In this document: positions 4,901 to 25,754 of the stretch, in pieces
Position numbering within the stretch: the stretch's first letter is position 1
Layout: each line of letters begins with the position of its first letter
Virus record (IMG/VR): IMGVR_UViG_3300034104_002635
Span: 1-25,846 of that record
Length of the DNA: 25,846 nucleotides
Direction: 5' to 3' (one strand)
Source of the DNA: a virus
Translations under genes and position numbers: made by a program
Notes under the pieces: generated by a model
Database searches by the model: none
The model's input: the letters and a program-made list of their open reading frames with translations, nothing else
What the model was told of the DNA's origin: nothing

Positions 4901-7653
4901 GCAAGATCGTCGACCGCTTCGAACGTCTGCGCGTAGTGCAAAACCTTGGCCAGCTGCGCGCTGGCATCGAGGGTTTCTACGAGGCTGCCCGCAAGTTCGA
5001 TAGCCGTGCCGGTGAACTGATGGCGAAGTTCAACCGGGACTACTTCCAGCCCATTGAAAAGATCATGAAGGAGGCTGGGCTCAATCTGGAGACGGTCGAC
5101 GCCTTCCTCTATGCCCGCGCCGCGCCGGCTCGTAACGCGCGCCTGAAGGCTAAGGCAGAGAACGAGATCCGCGCCAAGATGGAGAACAAAATCCGCACAG
5201 AGATGGAGGCTGATGGCGCTGCCGAAGCTGACATTCAAGCGGCCATCGCTGACGCGGATGCTGACATTCAGGCGGCGATTGCAAAGGCCGCAGCCGATGG
5301 CAAGATTCCTGAAGCCGGCTCCGGCATGACCACGCAGGAAGCCACCGACATCATGAACGGCTTCCGGGGTCAGGATTACTTCCCGGCCCTTGAGCGCATC
5401 GGCGAGATCTTCAACCGTGCCAACAAGGAGCGGATGGAGAATAACATCCAGCGCGGCCTCGTGTCCCGTGAGATCGGCGAGCAGCTGCTGCGCGAAGAGC
5501 CAGACTACGTCCCGATGAAGGGCTTTGTCTTCGACGAGAACCTGACTGAGCCCGCTGAGGACTTCGAGGACGTGATGGGCTACGGCGGCAGCGGCTTCGG
5601 TGTCAGCGTCCGCGAGTGGTACGATACGCGCGGTCGCACCAGTCTGGGCTTCTCTCCGCTTGGCACGTTTGTCTCCGACGTGGGCACGTCCATCGTTCGC
5701 GGCGAGCGCAACCGCGTTGGCCAGAAGCTGATGACGTTCTTCATCGATAACCCGTCTGAGTCGTGGAAGGTGTTCAGCTATCGGAACCCGCCGCGTAATC
5801 GGAACGGCGACATCCAGCGCCCGTCGCCGTTTGACCCGAACTTCATGGTGGTGAAGCGCGGCGGCGACACGTTCTACCTGCGCATCGATGACCCCCTGTT
5901 GGCGAAGGCTGCGAAGAACCTGAACCCGCAGCAGATGAACTCGCTCCTGCAGATTTCGAGCAACCTGACGCGCATGCTGTCACGCTCGTTCACGACGGCG
6001 AACCCGGACTTCTTCGTGCCGAACGTCTTCCGCGATCTGCAGTCCGCGGCGCTGAACCTTGGTGCTGAGGCGCCCGGTCTGCTGAAGGCGTTCAGGGATA
6101 AGATTAAGGACGGCAAGGCATTCCGTAGTGTCGCCGCCTTCGAGTATGGCCGTGAGGGTGGAGATCCCGCGCTGCGCGAACTGTACGAGCAGTTCAAACT
6201 CGACGGTGGATCGGTGTCGTGGGTGCAGCGCGAGACGCCGCAAGAGGCCGCGGCTCGGATCCAGAAGGATCTGAAGACGGTCAATGACAGCCTGAAGGAT
6301 TTGAAGGACGCCCGCAGCGCCAAGCAGGCTATCGAAGCTGTGTGGAATCCGACCGGCAAGGGCTTCCGCGCGATGGTTGGCGCCCTCGAAAGCACCAACG
6401 CCACCTTCGAAAACAGTGTCCGCTTCGCCGCTTACAGGGCGGCGCTCGAAATCGGCATGAGCCGTGATCAGGCGGCTATGATTTCCCGTGAGGCGACCGT
6501 GGACTTCAACCGTCGGGGCGAGGCCGGCGCTCTGCTGAACGCTCTGTACGCCTTCTTCAATGCCGGCATTCAGGGTAGTGTCCGCACCGCGCGGGCGCTG
6601 TCGAACAACCCGTTGAAGACCGGCAAGCTGTCCACCACGCAGGCGGCGCTGCTCGGCATGATGACCACGGCTGCCACGCTGGCAGCTGCGAACGCGGCCA
6701 TGTCCGACGAGGACGACGACGGCAAGCTCTTCTGGGACAAGATCCCGGACTACGAGAAAGAGCGCAACCTCATCATCATGAACCCGCTGGATGGGAAGAC
6801 CTATACCAAGATCCCGATGCCCTACGGCTTTGGCTTCTTCCCGTATCTGGCAACCCGGACGATGGATGCCGCCCGTCGCGGTGACGATCTCGGCGCTGTC
6901 GGTCTGGACATAGCAACTGCCGGCCTTGGCAACTTCTCGCCAGTGCAGTTCAGTGCCGGCAACATCCCCAGTTCGATTGCCCGCGCGGCAACGCCGACGA
7001 TGGGCAAGCCGTTCGTTGAACTCATGCTCAACGAGAACTTCATGGGCAAGCCGATCTACAATGAGCCGTTCGACAAGGGTCAGTCCTACGCCTCTGTCGC
7101 CCGGTTCAATACGCCCGAAGGATATAAAGAACTGTCCCAGTTCCTGAACGACATCAGCGGCGGAGAGGGTAAGCTCAAGGGCAACCTGAATGCCCCTGCT
7201 GAGAGCTTCGAATACCTCACAGAGTTTGCCTTCGGTGGCGTGACCAATCTGGCCAAGTCACTCTATCGGACGGGCGAAGAGGGTGATGCCGTGGCCGCTC
7301 CTGTGGTTCGTCGCCTTGTTGGCCAGCCGGGTAAGGGGCGCAACGTGGGCGAGTATTACGAGCGCGAAGAGCGGGCACGCGTCGTGAACCAGCAGATGAA
7401 GGAACTGACCGGTCTTGAGAGGCGTGCGCTGATCGAGAAGTTCCCGGCGGAAACCAATCCGCGTGTCCAGTCGGCCTTGACCGCTACCCGCTCTGCGGTT
7501 CGTAAACTGAACGAAGAGCGCAAGCGCATTCGGAATCTGGACATCGATGAGGGCGTGAAGGCTGAGCGCCTTGAGGCTCTTCGGGAGCGCACCGATGCGG
7601 AGTTCGTGCGCTTCAACCGGATCTACAATCAGGTGGAGCAGGCGACCCGTTAA
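1981..7653 (+). CDS. Giant polyvalent internal virion protein (ParB-like, HEXXH zincin and LPD38-like regions)
   Basis: 1890 residues. The N-terminus (1-35) matches the 'MPxFxVxxPDGxxYxVxAPEGA' opening of phage internal virion proteins. Ala/Gly-rich hydrophobic stretches follow (about 128-168 and 310-330). A Pro/Glu linker includes five AEPV repeats (423-442). A ParB/sulfiredoxin-like region (about 460-590) has the motif GHDGRHR at 544-550. Next is a zinc-metallopeptidase motif HELIH at 773-777 with a candidate third ligand E838 in DPNEILAW. A second Pro/Gln-rich linker (921-965) leads to long helices and an LPD38-like region (about 1315-1575). Such 'polyvalent' proteins are packaged in podovirus heads and ejected with DNA, and the peptidase may act in the envelope or host. 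Domain identities are from motif reading; catalytic activity is inferred. Confidence 0.82.
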   Translation: MPRFRVKSPDGTMYEVNAPEGATQQDAIAYVQANASSIPKAETSVLRDVGGALVRGAGQIVSLPGQLAGLVTGDMDNISTRAGRSVEEFGEELQTEAFRERQRQQAARVEEAGKEGFLSGFGQQAKELLTDPLSLAAGIAQTAPAMIGTGGAGLAGRALAGRLIGQQAAKRGALVGAATGESAIVGGDAAQATYDRVSQMPQEVVARSDAYQAAIAEGATPEEARNAAAISAARRAAAVAAPIAAATGPLGLEAALLTGGVRRGVLRGGAEGAIREGGTEVVQETGQGVAENIGAQAIDPNVALTEDLGGRAAAGLILGGTMGGGAGAISGLRGPEAEPEAEPPPPPPPPAGEPEPELGVPATPFGAPPASEPPPSRPAGETVTIEDDEVTIEYPDGRLETIPREEWDARQKAAAPPVETPAAEPVAEPVAEPVAEPVAEPVAAAVPEPTTEPAPSPNNTEKRSQVGVVTFDQKSGIGQVPYNQNVDYRGFTAMMRPSKFLELGADLEAPLQSSLDYLTKEISSGKPVGSPFLIVDFETGKVSGHDGRHRMTVIRDLNNDQPVPVHFFGKGEQRARSLDADKIRSFAANLTSENGRPSADNFSEAFLQGTTVGATPSAPSTEPVSRYASVETPSGPIDITPPKGSISATPIEDVEPITPEQFAAAETATAQIQKMIAGKTMQQVARELGQNAILDTTRTIMPRVANILDEFEKVGIQLRIGVQTKGKQGLPGIQLKTTERGQTSWRLREPSVSVVVGGMDAIIPGTAERTLAHELIHAVTILAIDKADKLPPNSEISKAVKDLKALSRVVAKRMREDEKAGTLGWTKKFRLYRQDPNEILAWGLTDSNFQNYLKTIPTKTGNAFTDFVRYIGKLLGVGPKDQNALARLIEISDRIIPESQAGIADVTAGVVASAVEFGGIPSSPPSPTPPSPPPPPQQPPPPPPPQQPPPQQPAPSPPPPITPTKETRVEGWARKIVDRFERLRVVQNLGQLRAGIEGFYEAARKFDSRAGELMAKFNRDYFQPIEKIMKEAGLNLETVDAFLYARAAPARNARLKAKAENEIRAKMENKIRTEMEADGAAEADIQAAIADADADIQAAIAKAAADGKIPEAGSGMTTQEATDIMNGFRGQDYFPALERIGEIFNRANKERMENNIQRGLVSREIGEQLLREEPDYVPMKGFVFDENLTEPAEDFEDVMGYGGSGFGVSVREWYDTRGRTSLGFSPLGTFVSDVGTSIVRGERNRVGQKLMTFFIDNPSESWKVFSYRNPPRNRNGDIQRPSPFDPNFMVVKRGGDTFYLRIDDPLLAKAAKNLNPQQMNSLLQISSNLTRMLSRSFTTANPDFFVPNVFRDLQSAALNLGAEAPGLLKAFRDKIKDGKAFRSVAAFEYGREGGDPALRELYEQFKLDGGSVSWVQRETPQEAAARIQKDLKTVNDSLKDLKDARSAKQAIEAVWNPTGKGFRAMVGALESTNATFENSVRFAAYRAALEIGMSRDQAAMISREATVDFNRRGEAGALLNALYAFFNAGIQGSVRTARALSNNPLKTGKLSTTQAALLGMMTTAATLAAANAAMSDEDDDGKLFWDKIPDYEKERNLIIMNPLDGKTYTKIPMPYGFGFFPYLATRTMDAARRGDDLGAVGLDIATAGLGNFSPVQFSAGNIPSSIARAATPTMGKPFVELMLNENFMGKPIYNEPFDKGQSYASVARFNTPEGYKELSQFLNDISGGEGKLKGNLNAPAESFEYLTEFAFGGVTNLAKSLYRTGEEGDAVAAPVVRRLVGQPGKGRNVGEYYEREERARVVNQQMKELTGLERRALIEKFPAETNPRVQSALTATRSAVRKLNEERKRIRNLDIDEGVKAERLEALRERTDAEFVRFNRIYNQVEQATR
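3247..3309 (+). repeat. In-frame tandem repeat encoding AEPV units
   Basis: Five consecutive 12-base units of the type GCTGAGCCTGTG encode AEPV repeats inside the Pro/Glu linker of the giant virion protein. Units differ only at synonymous positions, indicating recent slippage or unequal recombination in a flexible linker. Confidence 0.85.
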
Positions 7654-7989: not shown

Positions 7990-9030
7990 TCAGTTAAACA
8001 GTTTGCGCAGCTTCAAGGCGCCGCGCGGTGCCATCAGTTCGGCTTCGTCGAGATAGCCGTTGTGCAGATCTCGCCACTCGCCACGCTCTTCCGGTGTCAG
8101 CTTCGCGACGATTTCGCATGCGGCCTCGCACCATTCATCCCAATCGACCATGTCGCCTTCTTCCTGCGGCTCCAGAATGTCGATGTGGAGTTCCTTCTTC
8201 TGGCGCGGTGCTGCCGTTGTCTTGGCGGCCAGCTTCTCTTCGAGGCTCTGCACCTGCACTTCCGCGACCGGGGTCTCATCGAAGTCCGTGATATCGATCT
8301 CGCTGCCGGCATACTCGTCAGCTTCGACCACGCCTTCCGCCTGATTGTCCACGGCCACAGCGCGCTGCGCTTCGGTCGAGAGCGGCATGTACTTGCTGGC
8401 CCGGCGGACAACGGTCTTGCGCCACATCTCGGCTTCGTCCGTCTTCCACGGGCCGACGATGTTGCCGTCCTTGGTCTTGGCCGATGAGCGGTCACGGATG
8501 GCAAGGATCTGTTCCTTGCTCATCACCTCGAACTGGGTCTCGCCGTTCTTCAGCTTCCACACGCAGTAGGCACCGACCATCGCGCCGCGGTTGGACAGGC
8601 CGTGCTTGTGGACGATGCTGGAGTCCAGACCTTCTACAACCTCGAACAGATCGTTCTCGTGAACCAGCCGGCTCTCGATCTTCAGCACCTCACCCGACTG
8701 CATGGCCAGCTTCATCAGGCCCTTATAGCGGGGCCGGAATTGCGCCACGTTCTTCTTCAGGCGGCCATCCCACACCTTCAGGATGTCTGCCTCACCCATG
8801 TTCTTGTTGAGGCTCAGGCCCAGTTCTGCGGCGCTCAGGCACGCCTTCAGCAGCGAGCCACGGTCGCACTCCAGCAGATCCATGTTGTCGGCCACAGCGG
8901 CGACGACGATGCCTTGAAACTTATCGACGGTCATGGCCTGCGGAAGCAGGCTGCGCAGGTGGCTCTCGCGCATGGCGAGCTCCTGCTTGAACCGATCCAT
9001 CGGTTTGGCCGGGAGGTTACTTGTTTGCAT
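7990..9030 (-). CDS. recT: RecT-family single-strand annealing recombinase
   Basis: 346 residues. It shows the RecT core: a helical N-terminus, then ACLSAAELGLSLNK (about 63-76), FRPRYKGLMKLAMQSG (about 98-113), the V.END.FEV segment with a following histidine, and EMWRKTVVRRASKYMPLS, the usual C-terminal end of the fold. RecT proteins bind ssDNA and anneal complementary strands together with a partner exonuclease; that partner (YqaJ-type) lies just upstream, and an SSB-like gene just downstream. The last 120 residues are acidic and variable. The ATG lies inside the 3' end of the small gene before it (14-base overlap), implying translational coupling. Confidence 0.93.
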   Translation of the reverse strand: MQTSNLPAKPMDRFKQELAMRESHLRSLLPQAMTVDKFQGIVVAAVADNMDLLECDRGSLLKACLSAAELGLSLNKNMGEADILKVWDGRLKKNVAQFRPRYKGLMKLAMQSGEVLKIESRLVHENDLFEVVEGLDSSIVHKHGLSNRGAMVGAYCVWKLKNGETQFEVMSKEQILAIRDRSSAKTKDGNIVGPWKTDEAEMWRKTVVRRASKYMPLSTEAQRAVAVDNQAEGVVEADEYAGSEIDITDFDETPVAEVQVQSLEEKLAAKTTAAPRQKKELHIDILEPQEEGDMVDWDEWCEAACEIVAKLTPEERGEWRDLHNGYLDEAELMAPRGALKLRKLFN

Positions 9031-9184
9031 TGTTCTGCTCCTCTTCCATGTCTTCGATCATGAGTTCAATCGCGCGCTCAACGGTGGCGCGCAGGGTGGG
9101 CTTGAGCGGGTGGCGTGCAGCCACTGAGCGCAGCTTGCCCAGCAGTTCGCGGTTTACCCGCATCATCACGTCTTCTTTCTTCAC
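9017..9184 (-). CDS. 55-aa helical (possibly ribbon-helix-helix) DNA-binding candidate between exo and recT
   Basis: A short gene starting with GTG at 9184, whose first bases overlap the TGA of the exonuclease gene (GTGA), and whose stop lies 14 bases inside recT. The product starts VKKEDVMMRVNRELLGKL and continues with a second helix LRATVERAIELMIEDMEEE. A short strand-like start (VMMRVN) followed by two amphipathic helices fits an Arc/MetJ-like ribbon-helix-helix fold. Tight overlap at both ends and a codon pattern like its neighbours support a real gene. It could autoregulate the recombination genes or bridge exonuclease and RecT; both are inference. Confidence 0.66.
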   Translation of the reverse strand: MKKEDVMMRVNRELLGKLRSVAARHPLKPTLRATVERAIELMIEDMEEEQNNANK

Positions 9185-13316: not shown

Positions 13317-13517
13317 TTAGTCACCCTGCAACACGCCTCTTTCAAACATGACGTTGCGGCTGCATCCAAGGCAAACTAGATGGTCGACATATGCACCCAA
13401 CTCGTGATTGACCATTACCACTGCCCACCCTTTGTATTCCGCATCTGGGTCGTTGCATTCGCAGACCATCATGCTGTCGGTAAAATTCTTACGACGAAAA
13501 TATATTACGTTAGTCAT
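13317..13517 (-). CDS. Cys-rich small phage protein, possible zinc binder
   Basis: 66 residues from the ATG at 13517, chosen because it overlaps the TGA of the upstream gene (ATGA); an upstream GTG at 13529 is the alternative. Cysteines in MVCECND and LVCLGCSR form a CxC...CxxC set that could bind one zinc ion, as in small zinc-ribbon proteins. Between them is a beta-rich core (YKGWAVVMVNHELGAYVDHL). Function unknown. Confidence 0.66.
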   Translation of the reverse strand: MTNVIYFRRKNFTDSMMVCECNDPDAEYKGWAVVMVNHELGAYVDHLVCLGCSRNVMFERGVLQGD

Positions 13518-14050
13518 TCGCATGACCACACTTCTGTAGAACGCTTGAGCTTCGGCCAGCCCTGATCGAGGGTGAAGCTACGCTCTTCAAACAATAAATT
13601 GTTCGTCGGCACGATGGTCAACCGGTCGCCAGTAGTTCGGATGAACATAAATTCTTTGTCCTGCGACGGCTCGTGCGTGAACGCATCACCCTGCGGAACC
13701 GCCGTAAACAGATACTCACCGGCCTCCCCGCTCTTCACCCGCACCCGTAGCCCGTCCAGATAGTCATACACCAAAAGCGAGAAGTCCCTGCCGTAGCAGT
13801 CCCAAACTTGCGCCTGCGACAGCGTCCAATCGGTGCATGCCGGATCGGCGCTGAACGCGAGGGCGTGTGGGGGCAGATTTCTGAACACCGCGCCACATTC
13901 AAGCATGACAGTGCAGCCCCACGCGCGGCCGGGGTGGCTATGCAAACCAAACCAAACAGCCGGCTCATACCCAACAGCACTCTCTCGGATGAATGCAGAA
14001 TCCACCCAAACGTAGTAGTGGCGCGGCAAGGATCCGCTGGAACTACTCAT
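13514..14050 (-). CDS. Conserved phage protein of unknown function (WFGLxSxPGRAWG type)
   Basis: 178 residues. Conserved-looking aromatic/glycine motifs run through it: VWFGLHSHPGRAWGC, ECGAVFRNLPPHALAF, VWDCYGRDFS and EYLFTAVPQGDAF. I recognise this pattern from replication-region proteins of other phages, where no function has been shown. It is beta-rich and soluble, with no transmembrane segment. Both ends overlap neighbours by ATGA, so it is tightly co-translated with a membrane microprotein upstream and a Cys-rich protein downstream. Confidence 0.78.
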   Translation of the reverse strand: MSSSSGSLPRHYYVWVDSAFIRESAVGYEPAVWFGLHSHPGRAWGCTVMLECGAVFRNLPPHALAFSADPACTDWTLSQAQVWDCYGRDFSLLVYDYLDGLRVRVKSGEAGEYLFTAVPQGDAFTHEPSQDKEFMFIRTTGDRLTIVPTNNLLFEERSFTLDQGWPKLKRSTEVWSCE

Positions 14051-14375: not shown

Positions 14376-14603
14376 TTACTCGTAACGCCACACGCGCACA
14401 CCGCCATCGGCCAAGCGGACAACGAACTTCTTACCGTAGCGCCGACCCGCATGTGACGCAGTGCTGGTCATCGAGCGGAGCGGCGCGCCCTCGACGTAGA
14501 AGCTCTGCCCCACTTCCAGCTTCGTCCACGGATACTTCGGACGCCGACTGCTAGGCTGGCGCGCTGCCGGGATTGCGTAACCATCTTCAACTTGGAATGT
14601 CAT
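14376..14603 (-). CDS. Small beta-rich phage protein (DUF7303-like)
   Basis: 75 residues from the ATG at 14603, chosen because GGAGG lies about five bases upstream; a GTG at 14636 in the same frame lacks such a site. The core pattern KYPWTKLEVGQSFYV...GKKFVVRLADGGVRVWR is one I know from many small phage proteins, grouped as a domain of unknown function (I believe DUF7303). Likely a small beta-barrel. Its place just downstream of the primase genes suggests an early role. Confidence 0.72.
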   Translation of the reverse strand: MTFQVEDGYAIPAARQPSSRRPKYPWTKLEVGQSFYVEGAPLRSMTSTASHAGRRYGKKFVVRLADGGVRVWRYE

Positions 14604-14625
14604 TCTGTCCTCCGGTTTTTTAAAC

Positions 14626-14799
14626 TTATAAGTCACGGCGATACCGCTCGTCCCTAAATATCACGTTTGCTTCAGCTACGCTAATACCAAACGTGTATGT
14701 CAACTCATGCGGCTCACGCTCCATCAGTGTGGAATCAGGCCATGCGCGCACCGTCTGGAGCGCAAGCTCAAAGCCCTTCGATCTCTTCTTCAGTTTCAT
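14626..14799 (-). CDS. 57-aa small basic phage protein, unknown
   Basis: Start ATG at 14799 overlaps the TGA of the primase-helicase gene (ATGA); a GTG at 14814 is an alternative. The product has a basic N-terminus (MKLKKRSKGFELALQ) and an acidic, helical C-terminus (ISVAEANVIFRDERYRRDL). No motif recognised. Its conserved position after the primase argues for a real gene. Confidence 0.58.
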   Translation of the reverse strand: MKLKKRSKGFELALQTVRAWPDSTLMEREPHELTYTFGISVAEANVIFRDERYRRDL

Positions 14800-17198
14800 A
14801 ACCCTACTGGCCACTCATGCTTCGGTAGAAAAATCCCACGCGACATCGACCCCTTGAAGCGGATCGAGTTCTCGCTCTTCCGCGCGCTCGGGTGGCGCAG
14901 CAACACGCCCGACCAGCCTTCGTAATAGACCGACGTCTGCATGATCTTGTTCAGGGCAGCGATGCTCTGGCCAATCCACACCCCGACCGCCAGCCCATAC
15001 TCGATCTCAACCTTCAAGCCGACGCGCGCCAGTGACTCGTCCGCAATCTTCAGGCCCACGTCTGCGTTCTCTTGCCGGGTGAAGCAGATCACCAGAAGCT
15101 CACCAATCGTCCGGTCTTGCACGCCGTGCAGGGTCTCAACGCGGATCGCACTCTGCACGATGTGGTCGAGCAGCACCCGGTCTTCGCGCTCCGCCTTCAC
15201 CTGCAGGAACTCGTCGAGGTTCACCGTGTTCAGATACTTCTCGCACTGCTTCATGTCCAAACGCTTCGTCGAATAGAGGCTGTAGCATCCGGCCATCAGC
15301 GTCCCCAGCTGGTCGCCGATACGGCGGTTGGCCAGCACCGTGGCAATCGTTTCTTTGAAGACCAAGATGTTGTGGCGCAGCGTGAACAGGTTGTGCAGTT
15401 GGCGCCCCAGCAGGCGCTGCGGCATATCCCTTGGGATCGACGAAGCCAGCGCCACGAAGTCCTTGAACTCCTCCTCCTTCTTGCGCCGCTCCTGCAGCGT
15501 GAACGAATCCAGCGGTTTAATCGTCAGCACCGCCGTGCGCGTCAGGTCGGCGGCTTCCTTCAGGCCCACGCCAATCGATGACATCAGGAACGACGACCGC
15601 ATCGTGAACGCCCGCGCTTGGTGGTTCGCTGATCCCTTCAGGATGCGCCCACGCCCTTCGCTCGACGCCTGTCGCATCAGATCCATCACGGCCTTGCGCC
15701 GCGCCGCAGCCGCCATCTTATTCTCTTTTTCGTCGCTCTCCGCTTCGTCGAACACCACAGGCATGGCATCGTTCTGCACCACCTGCCGGATCCCGGCCTC
15801 CGTTGTGGCGCCCAGCGGATAGATCGCCAGATCGCCAAGGCATGCCCCGGCCACCGTGTTCACCACCGTGGACTTCCCTGACCCTTGGTTACCCGTGACC
15901 CACGCATGGGTGCGCCAGTCCAATCCGCCACACACCACCGCCGTTGCAATCCAGCCAGCCAGCAGGTCGCCGTAGATTGGCGCGTCCCACCGCACCTTCC
16001 CGCACAGTTCACGGATCATGCGACCATCGTCGTCGCTCGCCATCGTCTCGAAGTTATCGACGTTCAGGATCAGGTCGCGGCCCTTCTCGTAGATCCAGCC
16101 GCTCTTCAGGCGAACGTGAGACACCTCGCGCGTCGGCGCTTCAGGGCGGCTGACCAAGAGCTTGTTCCCAGAATTAAGGATCGCCCTCGGCCCGTCCCTT
16201 TCGTCAAGCCAGATGCCGCGCCCGCGCAGCTTGGTCGGATCATACACCCCGGCCTTGTGGCACTGCTCCATCAGCATCACGCCAGATGCAACCCAGTCCA
16301 CACCCTTGCCGTCTTCTTTGCCCTGCAGCCGACCCCAGTGATTGACGTCACCATAGACGTTCATGCACCCCTTCTGGCTCATCAGGCGGTCAGGATCGAA
16401 CACGATCACCTGCTGCTGGTTCTGCAGCATCAGCATATATTTGTTGTGGTCATGCCCCAGCGGTCGCCACTCACGCGCGGCCTCCTCGTCAGGGTCTTGA
16501 TCCTCCAGCGGCGTCACATCGACGACCACCTTAGGCACCGCCGCGCGCTTCAGTTCCCGGCGCAGGATGTCCGTGATCTGCTGCGGCTTCGCCTTCAACG
16601 GCAGCGTGTCGGCCAGATCCCAGCCATCCGGGAACACCGCACTCAGCGTCACAATCGACACCGGCACACGCTGCTCACCCAGTTTCTTCTGAATCTCCAG
16701 CGCCGCCTCGATGCCCGGCGTGTCGTTATCAGGCCAGACCACGCAGCTATGCCCAGCGAGCAGGCTCCAGTCCGTCTGATCGACAGCCTTCGCCCCGCCC
16801 TGCCACGTCGTAATGACCCAGCCCTCAGGCACATATTGCGCCGCACCATCGGCGGCCTTCTCGCCCTCGACGATCAGCACCGGTGCGCTCGGCGATGCCG
16901 CCAACAGGTCGCCGTTATACAGCGGGCGCTCCTTGCCGAACCCGGACGTGAGAAACTTCTTCCCGTCCCAGACAATCGGCCTGATCTCTTTGCGCGCACC
17001 CGGCGGATTCCACCGTGCCACCGCCCCAAACGCGGCGCCATCAGCCATGCGGTAGATCCACATCGCATCAGGCTCTGGGCCGAGAGACTTCCGCAGCGAG
17101 TCCGGGATCACCACCGGCTCAGGCATCGGCGTGACAATCTCGGCCTTAGCCGTGATGTCCTCAGCAATCGCCAGCGCCTTCAGGTCTACCTTACGCAT
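14796..17198 (-). CDS. Toprim / SF3-like primase-helicase
   Basis: 800 residues. A Toprim-like region has VLIVEGEK at 107-114 and the acidic pair WPDND around 154-158, the metal site of DnaG-type primases. A middle region of unknown fold (about 250-400) is followed by a helicase ATPase with Walker A GNQGSGKST at 436-444 and Walker B MPVVFDEAE at 479-487, then a helical C-terminal part. The order matches phage primase-helicases that prime and unwind at the fork. The zinc-ribbon part normally at the N-terminus is encoded by the separate gene just upstream, whose stop overlaps this ATG by eight bases. No phage DNA polymerase gene is present in the window, so a host polymerase may be recruited. 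Confidence 0.88.
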   Translation of the reverse strand: MRKVDLKALAIAEDITAKAEIVTPMPEPVVIPDSLRKSLGPEPDAMWIYRMADGAAFGAVARWNPPGARKEIRPIVWDGKKFLTSGFGKERPLYNGDLLAASPSAPVLIVEGEKAADGAAQYVPEGWVITTWQGGAKAVDQTDWSLLAGHSCVVWPDNDTPGIEAALEIQKKLGEQRVPVSIVTLSAVFPDGWDLADTLPLKAKPQQITDILRRELKRAAVPKVVVDVTPLEDQDPDEEAAREWRPLGHDHNKYMLMLQNQQQVIVFDPDRLMSQKGCMNVYGDVNHWGRLQGKEDGKGVDWVASGVMLMEQCHKAGVYDPTKLRGRGIWLDERDGPRAILNSGNKLLVSRPEAPTREVSHVRLKSGWIYEKGRDLILNVDNFETMASDDDGRMIRELCGKVRWDAPIYGDLLAGWIATAVVCGGLDWRTHAWVTGNQGSGKSTVVNTVAGACLGDLAIYPLGATTEAGIRQVVQNDAMPVVFDEAESDEKENKMAAAARRKAVMDLMRQASSEGRGRILKGSANHQARAFTMRSSFLMSSIGVGLKEAADLTRTAVLTIKPLDSFTLQERRKKEEEFKDFVALASSIPRDMPQRLLGRQLHNLFTLRHNILVFKETIATVLANRRIGDQLGTLMAGCYSLYSTKRLDMKQCEKYLNTVNLDEFLQVKAEREDRVLLDHIVQSAIRVETLHGVQDRTIGELLVICFTRQENADVGLKIADESLARVGLKVEIEYGLAVGVWIGQSIAALNKIMQTSVYYEGWSGVLLRHPSARKSENSIRFKGSMSRGIFLPKHEWPVGL

Positions 17199-17583
17199 GG
17201 CTCAGGCCCAGCATCTCAGCGAACCCAGCAATCGTTTCCTGCAGGCTGTCGCCGAACAGCTTCATGGACAGGTCAATCATGTCGCCCTTTTCGCCGGTCG
17301 CGAAGTCCTGCCAGCGCCCGGTGCTGAACGATACGCCCAGCGATGGGTTCCGGTCGTCGCGCCACGGCGCACACGCCAGATACCAACCGCCCTGCCGCTT
17401 GCCACCCGGCAACCAGTCACGGCACAGCGCCTCGATGTGAGACGGACTCAGGCGATCCTTGATGTCACGGATGGAGTAAGACCGGGACTTGACGGATACG
17501 GCGGGGGAACAGGGGGGAGCACGCCTCCCGCCGCTCTTGTGGTTTTTAGGCAAGCCTTGGACATCGCCACAATTCCCGGTCAT
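17191..17583 (-). CDS. Degenerate primase zinc-ribbon (CHC2-like) protein
   Basis: 130 residues from the ATG at 17583; an in-frame TTG at 17658 would add 25 residues. The C-terminal 95 residues follow the CHC2 primase pattern: YLACAPWRDDRNPSLGV, then GRWQDFATGEKGDMIDL and a helix. The second zinc pair (CxxC of normal CHC2) is replaced by WQDFATG, as in several phage primases that no longer bind zinc in the usual way. It probably provides template recognition for the Toprim/helicase encoded just downstream, with which it overlaps by eight bases. Confidence 0.8.
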   Translation of the reverse strand: MTGNCGDVQGLPKNHKSGGRRAPPCSPAVSVKSRSYSIRDIKDRLSPSHIEALCRDWLPGGKRQGGWYLACAPWRDDRNPSLGVSFSTGRWQDFATGEKGDMIDLSMKLFGDSLQETIAGFAEMLGLSHA

Positions 17584-18769: not shown

Positions 18770-19189
18770 TCACTCCGTCACGGTGATAAAACTTCTCGTC
18801 GGTATCAGCACCACGCGCTCGACATCGCGGCTGTCGCCCCGGTCATAGCGGCCCCCGGTGGATACCGTGTGTTCGACAGGCACCTGCACGATGCCCAGTT
18901 CATCCGTCCACTGCACCGCCAGCAGGGCGTCAGCGCCCCTCGCGTCGATGGCGCAGAGCGCATTGTATTTATGCTCACTCAGCAGATAGGTTTCGTATCG
19001 CGCGCGCTCATTCCTACGCACCTTGATCTCAACGACACGGGGTCGCGGCTGGCAGCGGAAAACGGCATCGTATGGCGCGAACGGGTCTCGCGGCGCAGTG
19101 GCTGTCAAGCCGAAGGCGCGCTCCAGTTTTGCGATGACGCCCGCCTGATTGGCGCGATCCGCATCGCTTTCATAGACGGGTCGCGTCAT
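18770..19189 (-). CDS. PD-(D/E)XK-like small nuclease-fold protein
   Basis: 139 residues. PYDAVF (D41) followed by VVEIKVRRNE (E54, K56) and the helix YETYLLSEHKYNAL gives the D...ExK spacing of a restriction-endonuclease-like fold; the N-terminal helix carries Glu/Asp candidates. It has a strong GGAGGGGGA ribosome site and overlaps the previous gene by ATGA. Small phage enzymes of this type can be recombination, packaging or host-DNA-degrading nucleases. The fold call is from motif spacing only; activity is unproven. Confidence 0.68.
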   Translation of the reverse strand: MTRPVYESDADRANQAGVIAKLERAFGLTATAPRDPFAPYDAVFRCQPRPRVVEIKVRRNERARYETYLLSEHKYNALCAIDARGADALLAVQWTDELGIVQVPVEHTVSTGGRYDRGDSRDVERVVLIPTRSFITVTE

Positions 19190-19638
19190 TCCCCCTCCCC
19201 TTTCTTCCTCGATTGCCTTCGGCCATTAGCCACAGCCCGCGCGTGTATCTCTGGCCGCAGCTTCCGCAACTGCACGCCGAATTTTGTCCCACAGCCCCAG
19301 CCACAGGCCCGCCCCAGCTGAGACAGGTTCAGGGTTTCATCATACTGGCCCGCAATCGGCAGCCTGCGTGTGCCTGTGTCGTTGCTGCGATGCAGCCCAG
19401 TCACCTTGCGCCACTCCGCCACCTTCCGCACATCGACGCCATACCGCGCCGCCAGATCGTCGTTGCTGCGCCCCGCGAAGGTCGCAAAATCGTCCGGCAC
19501 CGGGCTACCCTTAGCCACGACAGACGACACCTGCGACAGGTGCGCCCGCGCCCGCTCAGACAGGCGCACAGGCGTCAGCTTCTTGCCGTCCCACCACATG
19601 AACCTACGGTCGTGGATAATCACACGCCTATCCGACAT
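19186..19638 (-). CDS. Helix-turn-helix DNA-binding protein, candidate early regulator
   Basis: 150 residues, basic. A helix-turn-helix is readable in SNDDLAARYGVDVRKVAEWR (about 58-77), with the recognition helix near VRKVAEWR. A second HTH-like stretch (LNLSQLGRACGWGCGTKFGVQLRK, about 104-127) precedes a very basic tail (RRQSRKKGEGE). A dual-HTH layout fits a DNA-binding regulator or a homing-endonuclease-type DNA-binding module. It is placed just downstream of three evenly spaced ATTAAT-type repeats (19665-19725), which could be its sites. This last link is inference. Confidence 0.66.
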   Translation of the reverse strand: MSDRRVIIHDRRFMWWDGKKLTPVRLSERARAHLSQVSSVVAKGSPVPDDFATFAGRSNDDLAARYGVDVRKVAEWRKVTGLHRSNDTGTRRLPIAGQYDETLNLSQLGRACGWGCGTKFGVQLRKLRPEIHARAVANGRRQSRKKGEGE

Positions 19639-20245: not shown

Positions 20246-20400
20246 CTCACGCGCTCCCTCTCCAGCCGCGCCCACCGCGCCAGCGCCTCACGCGCCACCT
20301 GCGCGGCCTCGTCACGCACCCGGCGGGCATGAACCCACCGCGCCCGCTCCTGCTCCGCAATCGCTGCATCCAGCGCCTGCAATGCCTGCTGTCCCGTCAT
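20242..20400 (-). CDS. 52-aa Arg/Ala-rich helical phage protein
   Basis: ATG at 20400 overlaps the preceding TGA (ATGA). The whole product is one long charged helix (ALDAAIAEQERARWVHARRV, then EAAQVAREALARWARLERER), consistent with a coiled coil. No function assigned. Confidence 0.55.
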   Translation of the reverse strand: MTGQQALQALDAAIAEQERARWVHARRVRDEAAQVAREALARWARLERERVR

Positions 20401-20717
20401 TTCATCGTTCCTTTTATAAGGCCCATCGGCGTCATCGACATCGCCCGCTCGTAGGCGTTCTTCTTCTTCACCGCAGATGAAAACTGCTGCTCCCTCAGCC
20501 ACAAAAGCTCCTCCAGCACCTCCAGCATGTCAGGCGCAGCAGCGATCAATCGCGCGTTCGCCTGCACGGTCTGCGCGTCCCAATCTTTCTCCATAGTGCA
20601 GACTGGCAGCCAGCGTGCCTCGCCATCAGGCCCCGGCTCGCATAGCGCCTCAACCCCCGTCTCGATCATGAACCCCTTGCGGGTAACGAACCACGGCCCC
20701 GGCGTGTGTCCCGTCAT
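20397..20717 (-). CDS. HTPGPW-motif phage protein, copy 1
   Basis: 106 residues. HTPGPW at 4-9, then a beta-rich region and the ANARLIAAAPDMLEVLEELL helix, the recognised signature of a widespread small phage protein family of unknown function. The C-terminal end (AVKKKNAYERAM) is nearly identical to copy 4 at 21204. The stop and start overlap neighbours by ATGA. Confidence 0.8.
   Translation of the reverse strand: MTGHTPGPWFVTRKGFMIETGVEALCEPGPDGEARWLPVCTMEKDWDAQTVQANARLIAAAPDMLEVLEELLWLREQQFSSAVKKKNAYERAMSMTPMGLIKGTMK
20438..20474. repeat. 37-bp exact repeat shared by two HTPGPW genes (copy 1)
   Basis: Identical to 21260-21296. It encodes the shared KKKNAYERAM-type end of the two paralogues, showing a duplication recent enough to keep exact DNA identity over a short stretch. 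Confidence 0.85.
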
Positions 20718-20914
20718 TTCAATTCTCCCTTCGCATATGCAATTATCGCGCGAGCTTGTGCCTGCTCCGCCTCGTCCTGCTCATCCCAAGATGGGGAGTC
20801 ACACAGCGCACGGTGGCTGATAACTAAAGCCTCCAGTGTGGCCAGCAGATCAGGCGCGGCCAACTGCAAGCGCCGACGTTCCGCCAGCCCTGACCAACCG
20901 ATATTATCGCTCAT
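20714..20914 (-). CDS. HTPGPW-family member lacking the N-terminal motif
   Basis: 66 residues from ATG at 20914 with a GGGAG site. It contains the family's helical part (RRRLQLAAPDLLATLEAL) and the C-terminal ARAIIAYAKGE pattern, but the HTPGPW-containing beta region is missing. It is either a trimmed paralogue or a natural helical-domain version. Situated between two complete copies and coupled to both by overlaps. Confidence 0.68.
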   Translation of the reverse strand: MSDNIGWSGLAERRRLQLAAPDLLATLEALVISHRALCDSPSWDEQDEAEQAQARAIIAYAKGELK

Positions 20915-21216
20915 CACGCCTCTCCCTTCGCACTCGCTATCACTGACGCAATCGCCGCCAGCACTTCGTCGTCTTCACCCTCGAAGTTCGACGCCTCCAG
21001 ACAATCACGCGCGACCTCCAGCATTTTCAGCATGTCAGGCGCGGCAGCGATCAGGCGGGCGTTAGCCATCGCTGTTGCATCGTTATGCAGCGCGCCTTGC
21101 CCAAACGAGTGGGCGTTCGTCGTGCAGATATCCGCGACAGTCTCGCTCTCAATTTCCACCTGATACCCGACCGCAAACCACGGCCCCGGTGTGTGCTTCG
21201 CAATCAATCCGGCCAT
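20914..21216 (-). CDS. HTPGPW-motif phage protein, copy 3
   Basis: 100 residues. HTPGPW at 8-13, the ANARLIAAAPDMLKMLE helix, and an end (IASVIASAKGEA) related to the 66-aa member just downstream. AGGGGATGG lies upstream of its ATG. It begins 13 bases inside the 3' end of the previous paralogue (copy 4). Confidence 0.8.
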   Translation of the reverse strand: MAGLIAKHTPGPWFAVGYQVEIESETVADICTTNAHSFGQGALHNDATAMANARLIAAAPDMLKMLEVARDCLEASNFEGEDDEVLAAIASVIASAKGEA

Positions 21217-21548
21217 TTATCCATCCCCTCTATGATACGCATCGCCGTAAGCGAATTACACATCGCCCGCTCGTAGGCGTTCTTCTTCTTCACCGCCGAT
21301 TTAAACTCCTGCGTCCTCAGCCACAGCAATTCTTCCATCACCTTCATAAGATCGGGCGCACACGCGATTAACCGCGCGTTCGCGGCCACAGTCTCCGCAT
21401 CCCAATCTTCCCCCATCTCCATCGTGCAGACAGGCACCCAGTGCGTCCGAAAGGAACGCCCCAGCTCTCCCGCCACTTCGATGATCGTTTCGCCGGTTTC
21501 CGCCTTCCGGGCGACAAACCACGGCCCCGGTGTGTGTCCCGCGCTCAT
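21204..21548 (-). CDS. HTPGPW-motif phage protein, copy 4
   Basis: 114 residues. HTPGPW at 5-10, WVPVCTME and ANARLIACAPDLMKVMEELLWLR, then the SAVKKKNAYERAM segment shared with copy 1. The start overlaps the previous stop (ATGA). Family function unknown; the amplification is described under findings. Confidence 0.8.
   Translation of the reverse strand: MSAGHTPGPWFVARKAETGETIIEVAGELGRSFRTHWVPVCTMEMGEDWDAETVAANARLIACAPDLMKVMEELLWLRTQEFKSAVKKKNAYERAMCNSLTAMRIIEGMDKWPD
21260..21296. repeat. 37-bp exact repeat shared by two HTPGPW genes (copy 2)
   Basis: Identical to 20438-20474, about 820 bp away and in direct orientation. Recombination between the two would delete the intervening genes. Confidence 0.85.
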
Positions 21549-22625: not shown

Positions 22626-22703
22626 TCAGATAAGCGCCAGAACGGCGACCACGATACCCAGCGCGGCAACGGCCAGCGCGGATTGCAAGCGGCCCTCAGT
22701 CAT
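22626..22703 (-). CDS. 25-aa membrane microprotein
   Basis: An ATG at 22703 overlaps the TGA of the preceding gene (ATGA), with GGGAGG seven bases upstream. The product starts MTEGRLQ and then is a single hydrophobic helix (SALAVAALGIVVAVLALI) running to the stop. Size and topology match phage microproteins that insert in the inner membrane. Shine-Dalgarno plus coupling make chance unlikely, though such short genes can only be confirmed by ribosome profiling. Confidence 0.58.
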   Translation of the reverse strand: MTEGRLQSALAVAALGIVVAVLALI

Positions 22704-23167
22704 GCCAAAGCCTCCCGCATCTCATCAACCCGGACGCGCGCCACATCCAGCGCCTCGTCCAACAGCTCGTTCGCCACCTCGACCAGATAGGCGTTCGCCC
22801 GCTGGCCCCGACGAAACACGGGATAATTGCACTCAATGCCCCAGAGTGATGCAGCATGGTCGTCAATCTCAATGCCATTGCGCGACACGCTCACGACTAT
22901 ACCGCACCAGAACCATTCATCGTTCTTCCATGCGTCCATTACAGCCTGCGCCCGCGCCATGCGCCGCGCCAGTGTCGCCTTGCTTTTCGGCCCAATCCAG
23001 CCCGCATCCTTCGGGTCAAGCGAGGGCCAAAAACCGTCCTGTTCTCTGTCAGGCGCGCCGCTGTTCGTGTCATAACGAACCGTCGCCGTTACCTCGAAGC
23101 CGTCCACCTCGCATGTGATGCTATCGCCCTCGCAGACGTAATCACGGAAACCTTGACCAACAAACAT
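22700..23167 (-). CDS. Conserved phage protein (155 aa), first gene of the leftward early block
   Basis: ATG at 23167, with a strong GGGAGGC site. Beta-rich N-terminus (DSITCEVDGFEVTATVRYD), then EWFWCGIVVSVSRNGIEIDD and ASLWGIECNYP, and a helical acidic C-terminus (NAYLVEVANELLDEALDVA). I recognise the GFEVTA and SLWGIE patterns from many phage early proteins without a known function. It is promoter-proximal in the leftward operon. Confidence 0.75.
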   Translation of the reverse strand: MFVGQGFRDYVCEGDSITCEVDGFEVTATVRYDTNSGAPDREQDGFWPSLDPKDAGWIGPKSKATLARRMARAQAVMDAWKNDEWFWCGIVVSVSRNGIEIDDHAASLWGIECNYPVFRRGQRANAYLVEVANELLDEALDVARVRVDEMREALA

Positions 23168-23177
23168 TTCATGCCTC

Positions 23178-23190
23178 CCGTTTCAAACGG
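23178..23190. promoter_or_regulatory. CCGTTT-C-AAACGG palindrome upstream of the 155-aa gene
   Basis: Perfect 6-bp arms around one base, containing the GTTTCA hexamer that recurs to the right, and lying 11 bases before the start codon at 23167. Its position upstream of the ribosome site suggests an operator or a leader structure. Confidence 0.5.
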
Positions 23191-23203
23191 CCCGTCAAGA
23201 CCG

Positions 23204-23356
23204 TCACCCAGCCTCTAATTCAACGTGACATTTCGCGCAACAATAAATCAGCACCGAAAACGGAGCTTTCACATCCGCAATCGGATCGACAGGGAAACGC
23301 TCGTTTTCGATTAAAACTAACTTACAACGAAGGGTTAACCCATTGAGATTGCTCAT
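23204..23356 (-). CDS. Possible 50-aa Cys-rich protein
   Basis: Open frame from ATG at 23356: MSNLNGLTLRCKLVLIENER, then a Pro/Asp-rich middle, ending in LIYCCAKCHVELEAG. Cysteines near the end (CCAKC) could bind metal. No Shine-Dalgarno is visible before this ATG and the base composition is lower in GC than the neighbours. It may be a leaderless early gene or a chance frame within the control region. Confidence 0.35.
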   Translation of the reverse strand: MSNLNGLTLRCKLVLIENERFPVDPIADVKAPFSVLIYCCAKCHVELEAG

Positions 23357-23443
23357 GAAACAAAATGTCACGGGCCAAGCCCCTGAAACCAAACGATAAA
23401 ACAGCGTTTTGAAACGGGTGAAACGCCCCTGTGACGGTTGGCT

Positions 23444-23657
23444 GTTTCACTCCAAGGCACTGATAACATTACCAAAATCGGGGCAAAAACGCAAATGAAA
23501 CGGTTTTTCGGGAAATATAGCCCCATATAGGTATTCATACCCCCACTGTGTTATGTATACAACTCACCCCATCCTTATAGCTATATATATCTAAATCTCG
23601 TTTCATTTATAATAATAATAAGAAAAAGGGTGTTCTTTCAAAGGCTTGGAGTGAAAC
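23444..23657. repeat. Inner 15-bp inverted repeat (23444-23458 / 23643-23657)
   Basis: GTTTCACTCCAAGGC pairs with GGCTTGGAGTGAAAC at 14 of 15 positions, nested inside the outer repeat. The right arm is followed by CGG, giving the extended TGAAACGG form. Confidence 0.85.
23534..23562 (-). promoter_or_regulatory. Candidate leftward early promoter
   Basis: On the - strand TTGTAT (23557-23562) and TATGAA (23534-23539) are separated by 17 bases. Agreement with consensus is moderate (3/6 and 4/6). The -10 lies inside a palindrome GGTAT-TC-ATACC (23530-23541), which could be an operator. It is upstream of the 155-aa gene in the expected place, with a leader of over 300 bases. Confidence 0.32.
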
Positions 23658-23699
23658 GGGGGGTGTGACATTTGGCGTTTTTCTGTTTCAAAACGCCTT

Positions 23700-23920
23700 T
23701 TTATGCAGCAAAGACAGGCTCTTAGCCCGTGACACAGCAGATAGCCGATAGCTTGCGTGTCAGCAGGGGTTGCCAGCAGGGGACAAGCTCTGGCGGTGGG
23801 TGCGAGAGGCTGCCGATTTTAAAGCCCTCTCAGCGCGGCGGGGTGCCGGGGGTGGTGCTGGTGCCAGACAGGCGCGGGCGGCGCTGTGCGGGGCCTCTGG
23901 CGGGCTGGGAGAGGGCAAAG
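23700..23920. other. GC-rich 220-bp segment without a convincing gene
   Basis: No frame has both a ribosome site and a protein-like composition. A short direct repeat CAGCAGGGG occurs at 23761-23769 and 23774-23782. It separates the early control region from the terminator on its right and may be a decayed gene. Confidence 0.4.
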
Positions 23921-23946
23921 AAAAAGCCCGCCGGTTAGGGCGGGCT
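23921..23946 (-). terminator. Intrinsic terminator of the three-gene leftward operon
   Basis: Read on the - strand: perfect 8-bp stem AGCCCGCC / GGCGGGCT with a six-base loop followed directly by TTTT and C. It lies 22 bases after the stop of the 75-aa gene, a classic position. It would keep this operon's transcripts out of the control region to its left. Confidence 0.85.
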
Positions 23947-24628: not shown

Positions 24629-24865
24629 TTAGATTGTGATGCCGTGCTGCGCGGCCAGAGCTTTACCGGCGTCAGTAAAGAACAGCCAAGTGTGCCCTTC
24701 TTCAATGTCGGTTGTGATTAGACCGGCCACCTTCAGCTGAGTAAGGTTGCCACGCTCTGCTTTGTCGCCGCCCACGTTGCCGCCCACCAACGGTGTGCCG
24801 TTCCAGTTGCCAGCGTCGTCGGCGTAGGCGAGAAAGACCTTCAGGCTCGTTTCGGTAATGTTCAT
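24629..24865 (-). CDS. Winged-helix-like small phage protein (78 aa)
   Basis: ATG at 24865, with AAGGA about nine bases upstream. An N-terminal helix (TETSLKVFLAYADDAGNW) and a C-terminal stretch NLTQLKVAGLITTD...TWLFFTDAGKALAAQHGI have the helix-strand-strand ('recognition helix plus wing') layout of MarR-like winged helices: L..L...GLI followed by a beta hairpin and T..GK. Members in other phages are unassigned. As first gene of a self-contained operon next to both control regions, it may be a transcription regulator; inferred. Confidence 0.72.
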   Translation of the reverse strand: MNITETSLKVFLAYADDAGNWNGTPLVGGNVGGDKAERGNLTQLKVAGLITTDIEEGHTWLFFTDAGKALAAQHGITI

Positions 24866-25241: not shown

Positions 25242-25754
25242 ATGTTTGATGACACGGGTGATTTGGATGTGATAGGTCCTGCTGAGCGGGACGCGATTTT
25301 TGCGCGTGTTTATGTTGAGCAGCGTGCGTTGAAGAAGGGGAATGCGGCTGAGATTGCTTGTGTTCGGGCTGGGATTACGAGTCCTGAGTTGAACATGTCG
25401 ATTGTCGCGTCGAGGCAGCTGGCGCGGCCTGAGGTTCAGCGTTTGATTATGGCGGCTGAGGCTTCGGGGGTTGAGGTTGAGCGGCGGGAATATACGCGGG
25501 ATTTGTTTTTGGATGAGTTGCAGGCTGTTGTTCAGGCGGCGATGGACAAGGGTGCGTATCCGAGTGCGATTAGTGCGGTGAAGACGCAGGCGCAGTTGCT
25601 GGGGATGTTGGATCAGACGGTGAATGTGAACCACAGTGTGAGCGCGAAGGATCTGGATTTGGCGACGCTCAGGGCGATGGTTGCGGATCGGGCGAGGCCG
25701 GTGAAGGTGATTGAGGGGACGTTGGTCCGGGGGATTGGGGATGGCGATGACTGA
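25242..25754 (+). CDS. terS: Terminase small subunit
   Basis: 170 residues from the ATG at 25242; the frame extends upstream, but an earlier start would add an unrelated hydrophobic stretch with no ribosome site. An N-terminal HTH-like unit reads GNAAEIACVRAGITSPELNMSI followed by ASRQLARPEVQRLI, the classic phage small-terminase pattern. A helical middle (DELQAVVQAAMDKGAYPSAI) with KTQAQLLGML follows, then a short C-terminal tail. TerS oligomers bind the packaging site and hand DNA to the large subunit. Codon third positions are strikingly rich in G and T compared with the other genes. The next gene overlaps its end. Confidence 0.83.
   Translation: MFDDTGDLDVIGPAERDAIFARVYVEQRALKKGNAAEIACVRAGITSPELNMSIVASRQLARPEVQRLIMAAEASGVEVERREYTRDLFLDELQAVVQAAMDKGAYPSAISAVKTQAQLLGMLDQTVNVNHSVSAKDLDLATLRAMVADRARPVKVIEGTLVRGIGDGDD

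Follow-up and report, generated by a model that had tools for sequence, protein, structure and literature searches.

The window analysed here is the whole 25,846-nucleotide stretch of the IMG/VR virus record IMGVR_UViG_3300034104_002635, in which all genes from approximately 24.9 to 8.0 kb are read leftward. These include recE/recT-like genes, a helicase, a VRR-NUC protein, a CHC2 zinc finger, and a TOPRIM primase-helicase. The last of these, a candidate initiator of 800 amino acids (14796–17198, minus strand), ends in a 161-residue C-terminal domain predicted to be a winged helix (14799–15281, minus strand), and its CHC2 zinc-finger primase part is encoded by a separate gene (17191–17583, minus strand). 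The helicase gene is followed by a small ORF with an HTH-like sequence (14626–14814, minus strand) and by the gene for a DUF7303 protein (14376–14636). In the near-complete relative G001, the early and late blocks lie on opposite strands, and terminase, portal, and capsid genes are present. No nucleotide relatives were found among named phages.

Among the other ORFs of the window, a leftward ORF of 178 amino acids (13514–14050) matches PHROG 3704, annotated as ferredoxin (E = 5e-14), and may be an auxiliary gene; it is mosaic among relatives, with 58–96% identity. The pattern HTPGPWFV...ANARLIAAAPDML runs through several neighboring small ORFs at 20397–21548, which look like repeated duplications of a single short gene. 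The 1890-amino-acid ORF at 1981–7653 is probably the counterpart of a 1216-amino-acid ORF in the relative L024 (18677–22327), the corresponding end lying next to recT; the L024 protein matches very large phage proteins of unassigned function, with a weak further match to the C-terminal portion of a “virion RNA polymerase” family. G002, the record of L006, has ATACAG seven times at intervals of exactly 63 bp in its late (structural) region (38402–38785), which points to a tandem repeat of 63 bp.

Directly upstream of the early leftward operon lies a conserved dyad array (23366–23734, unstranded), a candidate replication origin. Its place is the one given for a cluster of TGAAAC/GTTTCA hexamers in the first-pass annotation, between the start of the first gene of the leftward early block (23167) and the terminator-like hairpin that closes the upstream leftward genes (23946–23925, minus strand). 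All ten hexamers reported there were recovered, within 511 bp, and the expectation of fewer than one by chance agrees with shuffles of the surrounding 980 bp, which gave 0.6. The window as a whole holds 19 copies, against 9.5 expected from dinucleotide shuffles, with ten of them in 2% of the sequence and the remaining nine across the other 25 kb. The relative G001, 55 kb long, has 25 copies, of which nine fall within 335 bp at the same position relative to the genes, and a comparable cluster, which would count against a special role for this interval, was found nowhere else in the 55-kb relatives. The extended form TGAAACGG, noted at first reading for four of the ten copies, occurs five times in the window, four of these at the array. 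As in an iteron origin, a short site is thus present in multiple copies within a short noncoding stretch.

Three of the ten hexamers, at 23180, 23356 (23356–23361, plus strand), and 23384 (23384–23389, plus strand; probably incidental), are kept only in close relatives. The palindrome CCGTTTcAAACGG (23178–23190, unstranded), which contains the tenth TGAAAC, does exist as described, but it is not conserved in L001, L003, or L006. The palindrome is thus a peripheral feature, and conservation of the array extends over 23366–23734. Four further sites that fit the array scheme, GTGACA/TGTCAC at 23366, 23665, 23729, and 23225, had been missed earlier. The left arm consists of TGTCAC at L1 (23729–23734, minus strand), TGAAAC at L2 (23685–23690, minus strand), TGTCAC at L3 (23665–23670, minus strand), and TGAAAC at L4 (23652–23657, plus strand) and at L5 (23600–23605, minus strand), the innermost site. 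From the innermost site outward, the right arm carries TGAAAC at R1 (23496–23501, plus strand), R2 (23444–23449, minus strand), R3 (23419–23424, plus strand), and R4 (23410–23415, plus strand), followed by TGTCAC at R5 (23366–23371, plus strand).

These sites form four mirror pairs about one center (23685/23410, 23652/23444, 23600/23496, and, as the fourth and outermost, the TGTCAC pair 23729/23366), and the near-symmetrical layout noticed at first reading is borne out (P = 0.001–0.004). Five pairs share one center in L006, a number that none of 3000 random placements reached, and random placements give P = 0.005–0.009 for the four pairs of L082 and P = 0.018–0.032 for the three pairs of L018. 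The 12-bp inverted repeat at 23404/23685 is perfect, as claimed; the 15-bp repeat at 23444/23643 exists but carries one mismatch. Four imperfect inverted repeats (20–29 nt, 76–90% complementary) have their common center at 23550.

The innermost inverted sites enclose an AT-rich core of 98 bp (23502–23599, unstranded), a putative unwinding region with 62% AT relative to 40% for the whole window; an adjacent AT-rich region of this kind is again a feature of iteron origins. Across the arrays, the core measures 97–100 bp, and the innermost sites stand 103–106 bp apart in classes I and IV of the four site classes described below. The core contains a central palindrome, GTTATGTATACAAC (23550–23563). 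Symmetric arms around a central palindrome are also seen in N15 tos and attP, and on this ground the array could be a site for recombination, telomere resolution, or partition (attP, tos, or parS). Such a site is nevertheless extremely unlikely: the core palindrome is merely ~14–18 bp long and variable, no Phage_integrase or ResT-TelK protelomerase domain was found in six records, and no prophage was found.

The array also carries words that resemble the IHF consensus WATCAANNNNTTR, namely TATCAGTGCCTTG (23453–23465, minus strand), TTTCAAAGGCTTG (23636–23648, plus strand), and TCTCAATGGGTTA (23336–23348, minus strand), each with one mismatch, and TTTCAGGGGCTTG (23376–23388, minus strand), with two. 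The three words with at most one mismatch compare with 0.10 expected, an approximately 30-fold enrichment; most other arrays have two to four against at most 0.34 expected, and L082 has one against 0.11. No exact match to the consensus occurs in the window. Between the two innermost left-arm sites lies the tract TTATTATTATTATAA (23607–23621, minus strand), which class I and class II arrays both retain and which coincides with the minimum of the cumulative GC skew. Taking GC skew as a proxy for replication start, the minimum lies inside the array in nine of 16 loci, several of them at the AT tract itself, and this holds for most class I and II genomes. The genes just upstream and downstream of the array share one strand, yet the minimum is located at the array. 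For class III and L082, the minimum is displaced ~0.6–2.8 kb upstream, a point against the origin reading, with the skew still climbing steeply past the array. An RNA element at the array was also considered, and Rfam gave no credible match.

Relatives collected via the helicase and via the AT tract show syntenic arrays at the same place in at least 30 metagenomic phage contigs, with conserved arms and eight to ten homologous site positions per array. The window, L006, and L031 have an identical left-arm spacing of 44-20-13-52. Spacing and symmetry persist while the word itself changes as a set, and four classes can be distinguished: class I, with TGAAAC (the window, L001, L003, L006, L008, L024, L031, L032, L035, L040–L043, and L046); class II, with TCATAC/TAATAC/TAAAAC-type words (L010, L012, L015, L017, L027, and L048); class III, with TGTCAC (L018, L019, L023, L060, L066, L067, and L083); and class IV, with TGTAAC/TGTTAC (L069, L074, and L082). 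The words are class-specific and nearly all-or-none. TGAAAC occurs 9–11 times in class I and 0–2 times elsewhere, ATACAG 6–8 times in class II arrays, and TGTCAC 8–11 times in class III; TGTWAC gives 15–23 matches in class IV, where one site is often counted on both strands.

The change can be followed letter by letter at aligned positions. Site L4 (23652–23657) reads GTTTCACTC / GTATGAGTC / GTGACAGAA by class, and site R2 (23444–23449) reads gTGAAACag / TCATACag / TGTCACaa, with TCATAC in class II L015 and L027 and TGTCAC in class III L018 and L019. Class II has TAAAAC at L3 and TCATAC at R5, class III has TGTCAC at both, and R4 is found in class I only. L006 carries TGAAAC at three positions, including L3 and R5, where the window has TGTCAC, and the two words are therefore interchangeable within class I. 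Helicase homologues with 50–53% identity in L071–L073, L075–L077, and L081 have no such array in the stretches examined.

From the array to the upstream terminator, the DNA is GC-rich and has no convincing ORF (23701–23925); several class I relatives conserve this stretch at ~70–90%, and class II conserves it in part. The first gene after the array (22700–23167) varies among relatives of the same class and seems to be a spot for gene exchange. In L082 (1340–1540), GTTGAC/GTCAAC recurs within and to the right of the TGTAAC array, and the core holds a perfect palindrome, TGTTGAC-N5-GTCAACA; these may mark an additional binding site or the -35 elements of promoters.

Set-wise change of a recognition word is known also from heteroimmune repressors. 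Together with the position of the array directly upstream of the early operon, and with symmetric arms and IHF-like sites that suit a repression loop, it allows the locus to be read as a multi-operator regulatory region, in which a phage regulator bound to the sites would control the early leftward operon through IHF-assisted looping. This reading is unlikely. Neither an integrase (Phage_integrase) nor an HTH_3 protein was found in six records, four of them 51–56 kb long and all possibly incomplete, and no prophage relative was found, since the search applied to the genome contigs of 84,980 species turned up no helicase relative; the group to which the window belongs looks like one of virulent phages. 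Furthermore, the promoter-like TTGACA/CTATGG of class III lies outside the array, on the gene-proximal side, and in the cultured phage S-H1, discussed below, the array follows the helicase gene instead of standing at the head of the early operon. The first-pass annotation had offered the locus as either an iteron origin or a multi-operator switch (a master control region), and the latter half of that proposal finds little support here.

Natural recombinants point to the protein that may read the sites. Over 8.0–13.5 and 16.5–21.5 kb, class II L015 and L027 are mostly 90–99% identical to the window at the DNA level; class II identity falls to 70–84% at 14.5–16.5 kb, and at 22–24.5 kb, which includes the array, it is at most 77% or the DNA is unalignable. 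Because identity drops at both places, the array travels together with the stretch of the helicase gene that codes for approximately residues 240–800. No such co-segregation is seen for the TOPRIM part, the CHC2 zinc finger, or most of the genes that lie between helicase and array. Helicase residues 1–200 (TOPRIM) were rejected as the determinant, since classes I and II are intermixed there, as were residues 241–400, where L008 differs but has class I sites (69% identity to the window at 15990–16489, 94% at 14490–14989). L008 and L024 share the class I word yet differ from the window at residues 241–400, which shifts the determinant to the C-terminal half of the helicase or to the two small ORFs that follow it. 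In an alignment of 21 C-terminal domain sequences, position 759 holds Tyr in class I, His in class II, and Phe in classes III and IV. Among fragments that stop short of the array, L014 has His here, L009 and L013 have Tyr, and L020–L022 have Phe, so that they would be expected to fall in classes II, I, and III, respectively. This residue is no more than a specificity candidate, because descent confounds the comparison: the C-terminal tree places class II inside class I, so that the changes in word and protein are partly confounded.

Both the small ORF (14626–14814) and the DUF7303 gene (14376–14636) lie in the co-segregating segment, and either product could conceivably read the sites, the helicase then being recruited indirectly; the small ORF has its HTH-like sequence in favor of this. 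We consider this rather improbable, and the small ORF is disfavored, for L006 (class I) and L010 and L027 (class II) have nearly the same HTH-like helix and different words, and the window and L006 have the same word and different helices. L082, which ends inside the helicase gene, falls outside this comparison. Three other DNA-binding candidates put forward at first reading also fell away: the ORF at 24629–24865 was found in no relative tested, that at 19186–19638 is missing from class III and L031, and that at 9017–9184 does not match the site class.

A packaging site (cos or pac) was considered as well, in which the sites would be read by the small terminase. The probable gene for this protein (25242–25754) lies ~1.5 kb from the array, and lambda cosB likewise combines repeated sites with IHF. 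The identity of the small terminase to that of the window does not follow site class, however, being mostly 91–94% in class II (81% in L010) and 81–85% in class I L006 and L031, and the protein is therefore disfavored as the site reader. The symmetric array around an AT-rich core also differs from the layout of cos or pac, and a packaging function is very unlikely.

The C-terminal domain of the helicase is the preferred candidate for reading the sites. Its model (pLDDT 87) has a winged-helix-like fold, and VIA-align returned mostly winged-helix DNA binders, with a weak best Z of 4.8; the best matches were TcpK with and without oriT DNA (5vfx, 5vfy) and DUF1528 (2ipq), and the P4 origin-binding domain is absent from the matches listed. 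Foldseek with the same model gave no E-value below 0.36, and a PDB sequence search with the helicase and its C-terminus gave nothing significant. The AlphaFold model of residues 401–800 (ATPase) was poor (pLDDT 56) and was set aside, so that the assignment to a helicase family rests on sequence.

Cultured phages provide a remote comparison. Synechococcus phage S-H1 (MK105819) and Stutzerimonas phage ZRG1 encode helicases homologous to that of the window (30–36% identity; for S-H1, 100% probability and 36% identity over 722 columns), and both carry unannotated CTAACG arrays in which inverted sites flank AT-rich cores of 91 bp (S-H1) and 107 bp (ZRG1). The array layout thus stays with the helicase family even among remote relatives. 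The S-H1 array shares with ours the homologous TOPRIM helicase and iterons around its AT-rich core, but it uses the word CTAACG/CGAACG, lies directly downstream of the helicase gene, and has a less exact mirror symmetry. In Bordetella phage PBb001, which has a helicase homologue, no array was found in the stretch examined.

Among known systems, SaPI Rep and SCCmec Cch2 are similar in that a phage-related element uses its own helicase, there a self-loading initiator, at an origin of short repeats. In contrast, the present system has a CHC2/TOPRIM primase attached or adjacent, a phage genome of ~55 kb, an origin 6 kb from the helicase gene, and IHF-like sites, and the DUF927 helicase domain gave no match at E ≤ 10 in G001, G002, G004, and G009. 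P4 alpha, a primase-helicase fusion (PMC7145576), acts with ori and crr. The phage P4 record shows 8-bp type 1 repeats, TGTTCACC, in both orientations and some 9–11 bp apart, and the P4 TGTTCAC resembles the TGTCAC found here. P4 differs in having two separate elements, ori and crr, with no dyad around a 100-bp core, and the alignment of its alpha protein with the helicase of the window is confined to the Walker A motif (28 columns, probability 10%). Finally, the iteron plasmids R6K and pSC101 combine iterons, an AT-rich unwinding region, and IHF sites, as the array does; unlike the array, they have an initiator that is not a helicase, and most of their iterons repeat in the same direction to one side of the AT-rich segment. 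By analogy, the best reading is that array and helicase would work in the manner of the SaPI Rep and P4 alpha origins while belonging to neither group.

The array is therefore best read as an iteron origin that would be opened by the phage's own TOPRIM helicase through its C-terminal winged helix, and it is quite probable that it serves as the replication origin of the phage. The origin half of the first proposal draws on the conserved symmetry, the AT-rich core, the IHF-like sites, the GC-skew minimum, the helicase-linked word change, and the layout in remote homologues. Mechanistically, approximately ten short sites would form two inverted arms around an AT-rich core of ~100 bp, and the TOPRIM primase-helicase would bind them, most likely via its winged-helix domain, while host IHF bends the arms. 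The paired arms could thereby load a helicase ring at either flank of the core, which would open and allow forks to depart in both directions. Since no family-A DNA polymerase was found, we propose that a host polymerase copies the DNA. The sites would constitute a specificity code, such that all the sites would change whenever the gene for the helicase is exchanged or altered in its 3' part.

More tentatively, and with a little less than even confidence, this two-armed inverted iteron array, which would load a pair of TOPRIM helicases around its ~100-bp core and use a discrete, exchangeable code, may represent an undescribed family of lytic-phage origins. Four classes of the recognition code are seen here, and one more in cultured phages. 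Few origins of virulent phages are known to the level of the initiator binding code; in these phages, every site switches its word on a single scaffold that can still be aligned, and natural recombinants map the array's partner to the 3' end of one gene. A joint change in initiator and site specificity would be directly testable through exchange of the ~160-amino-acid domain and the ~370-bp array between classes, and the array layout offers a route to the origins of other phages with this helicase. If the proposal is true, these phages would provide a natural series of initiator-origin co-evolution, and the code would decide which phages share, or rob, each other's replication machinery.
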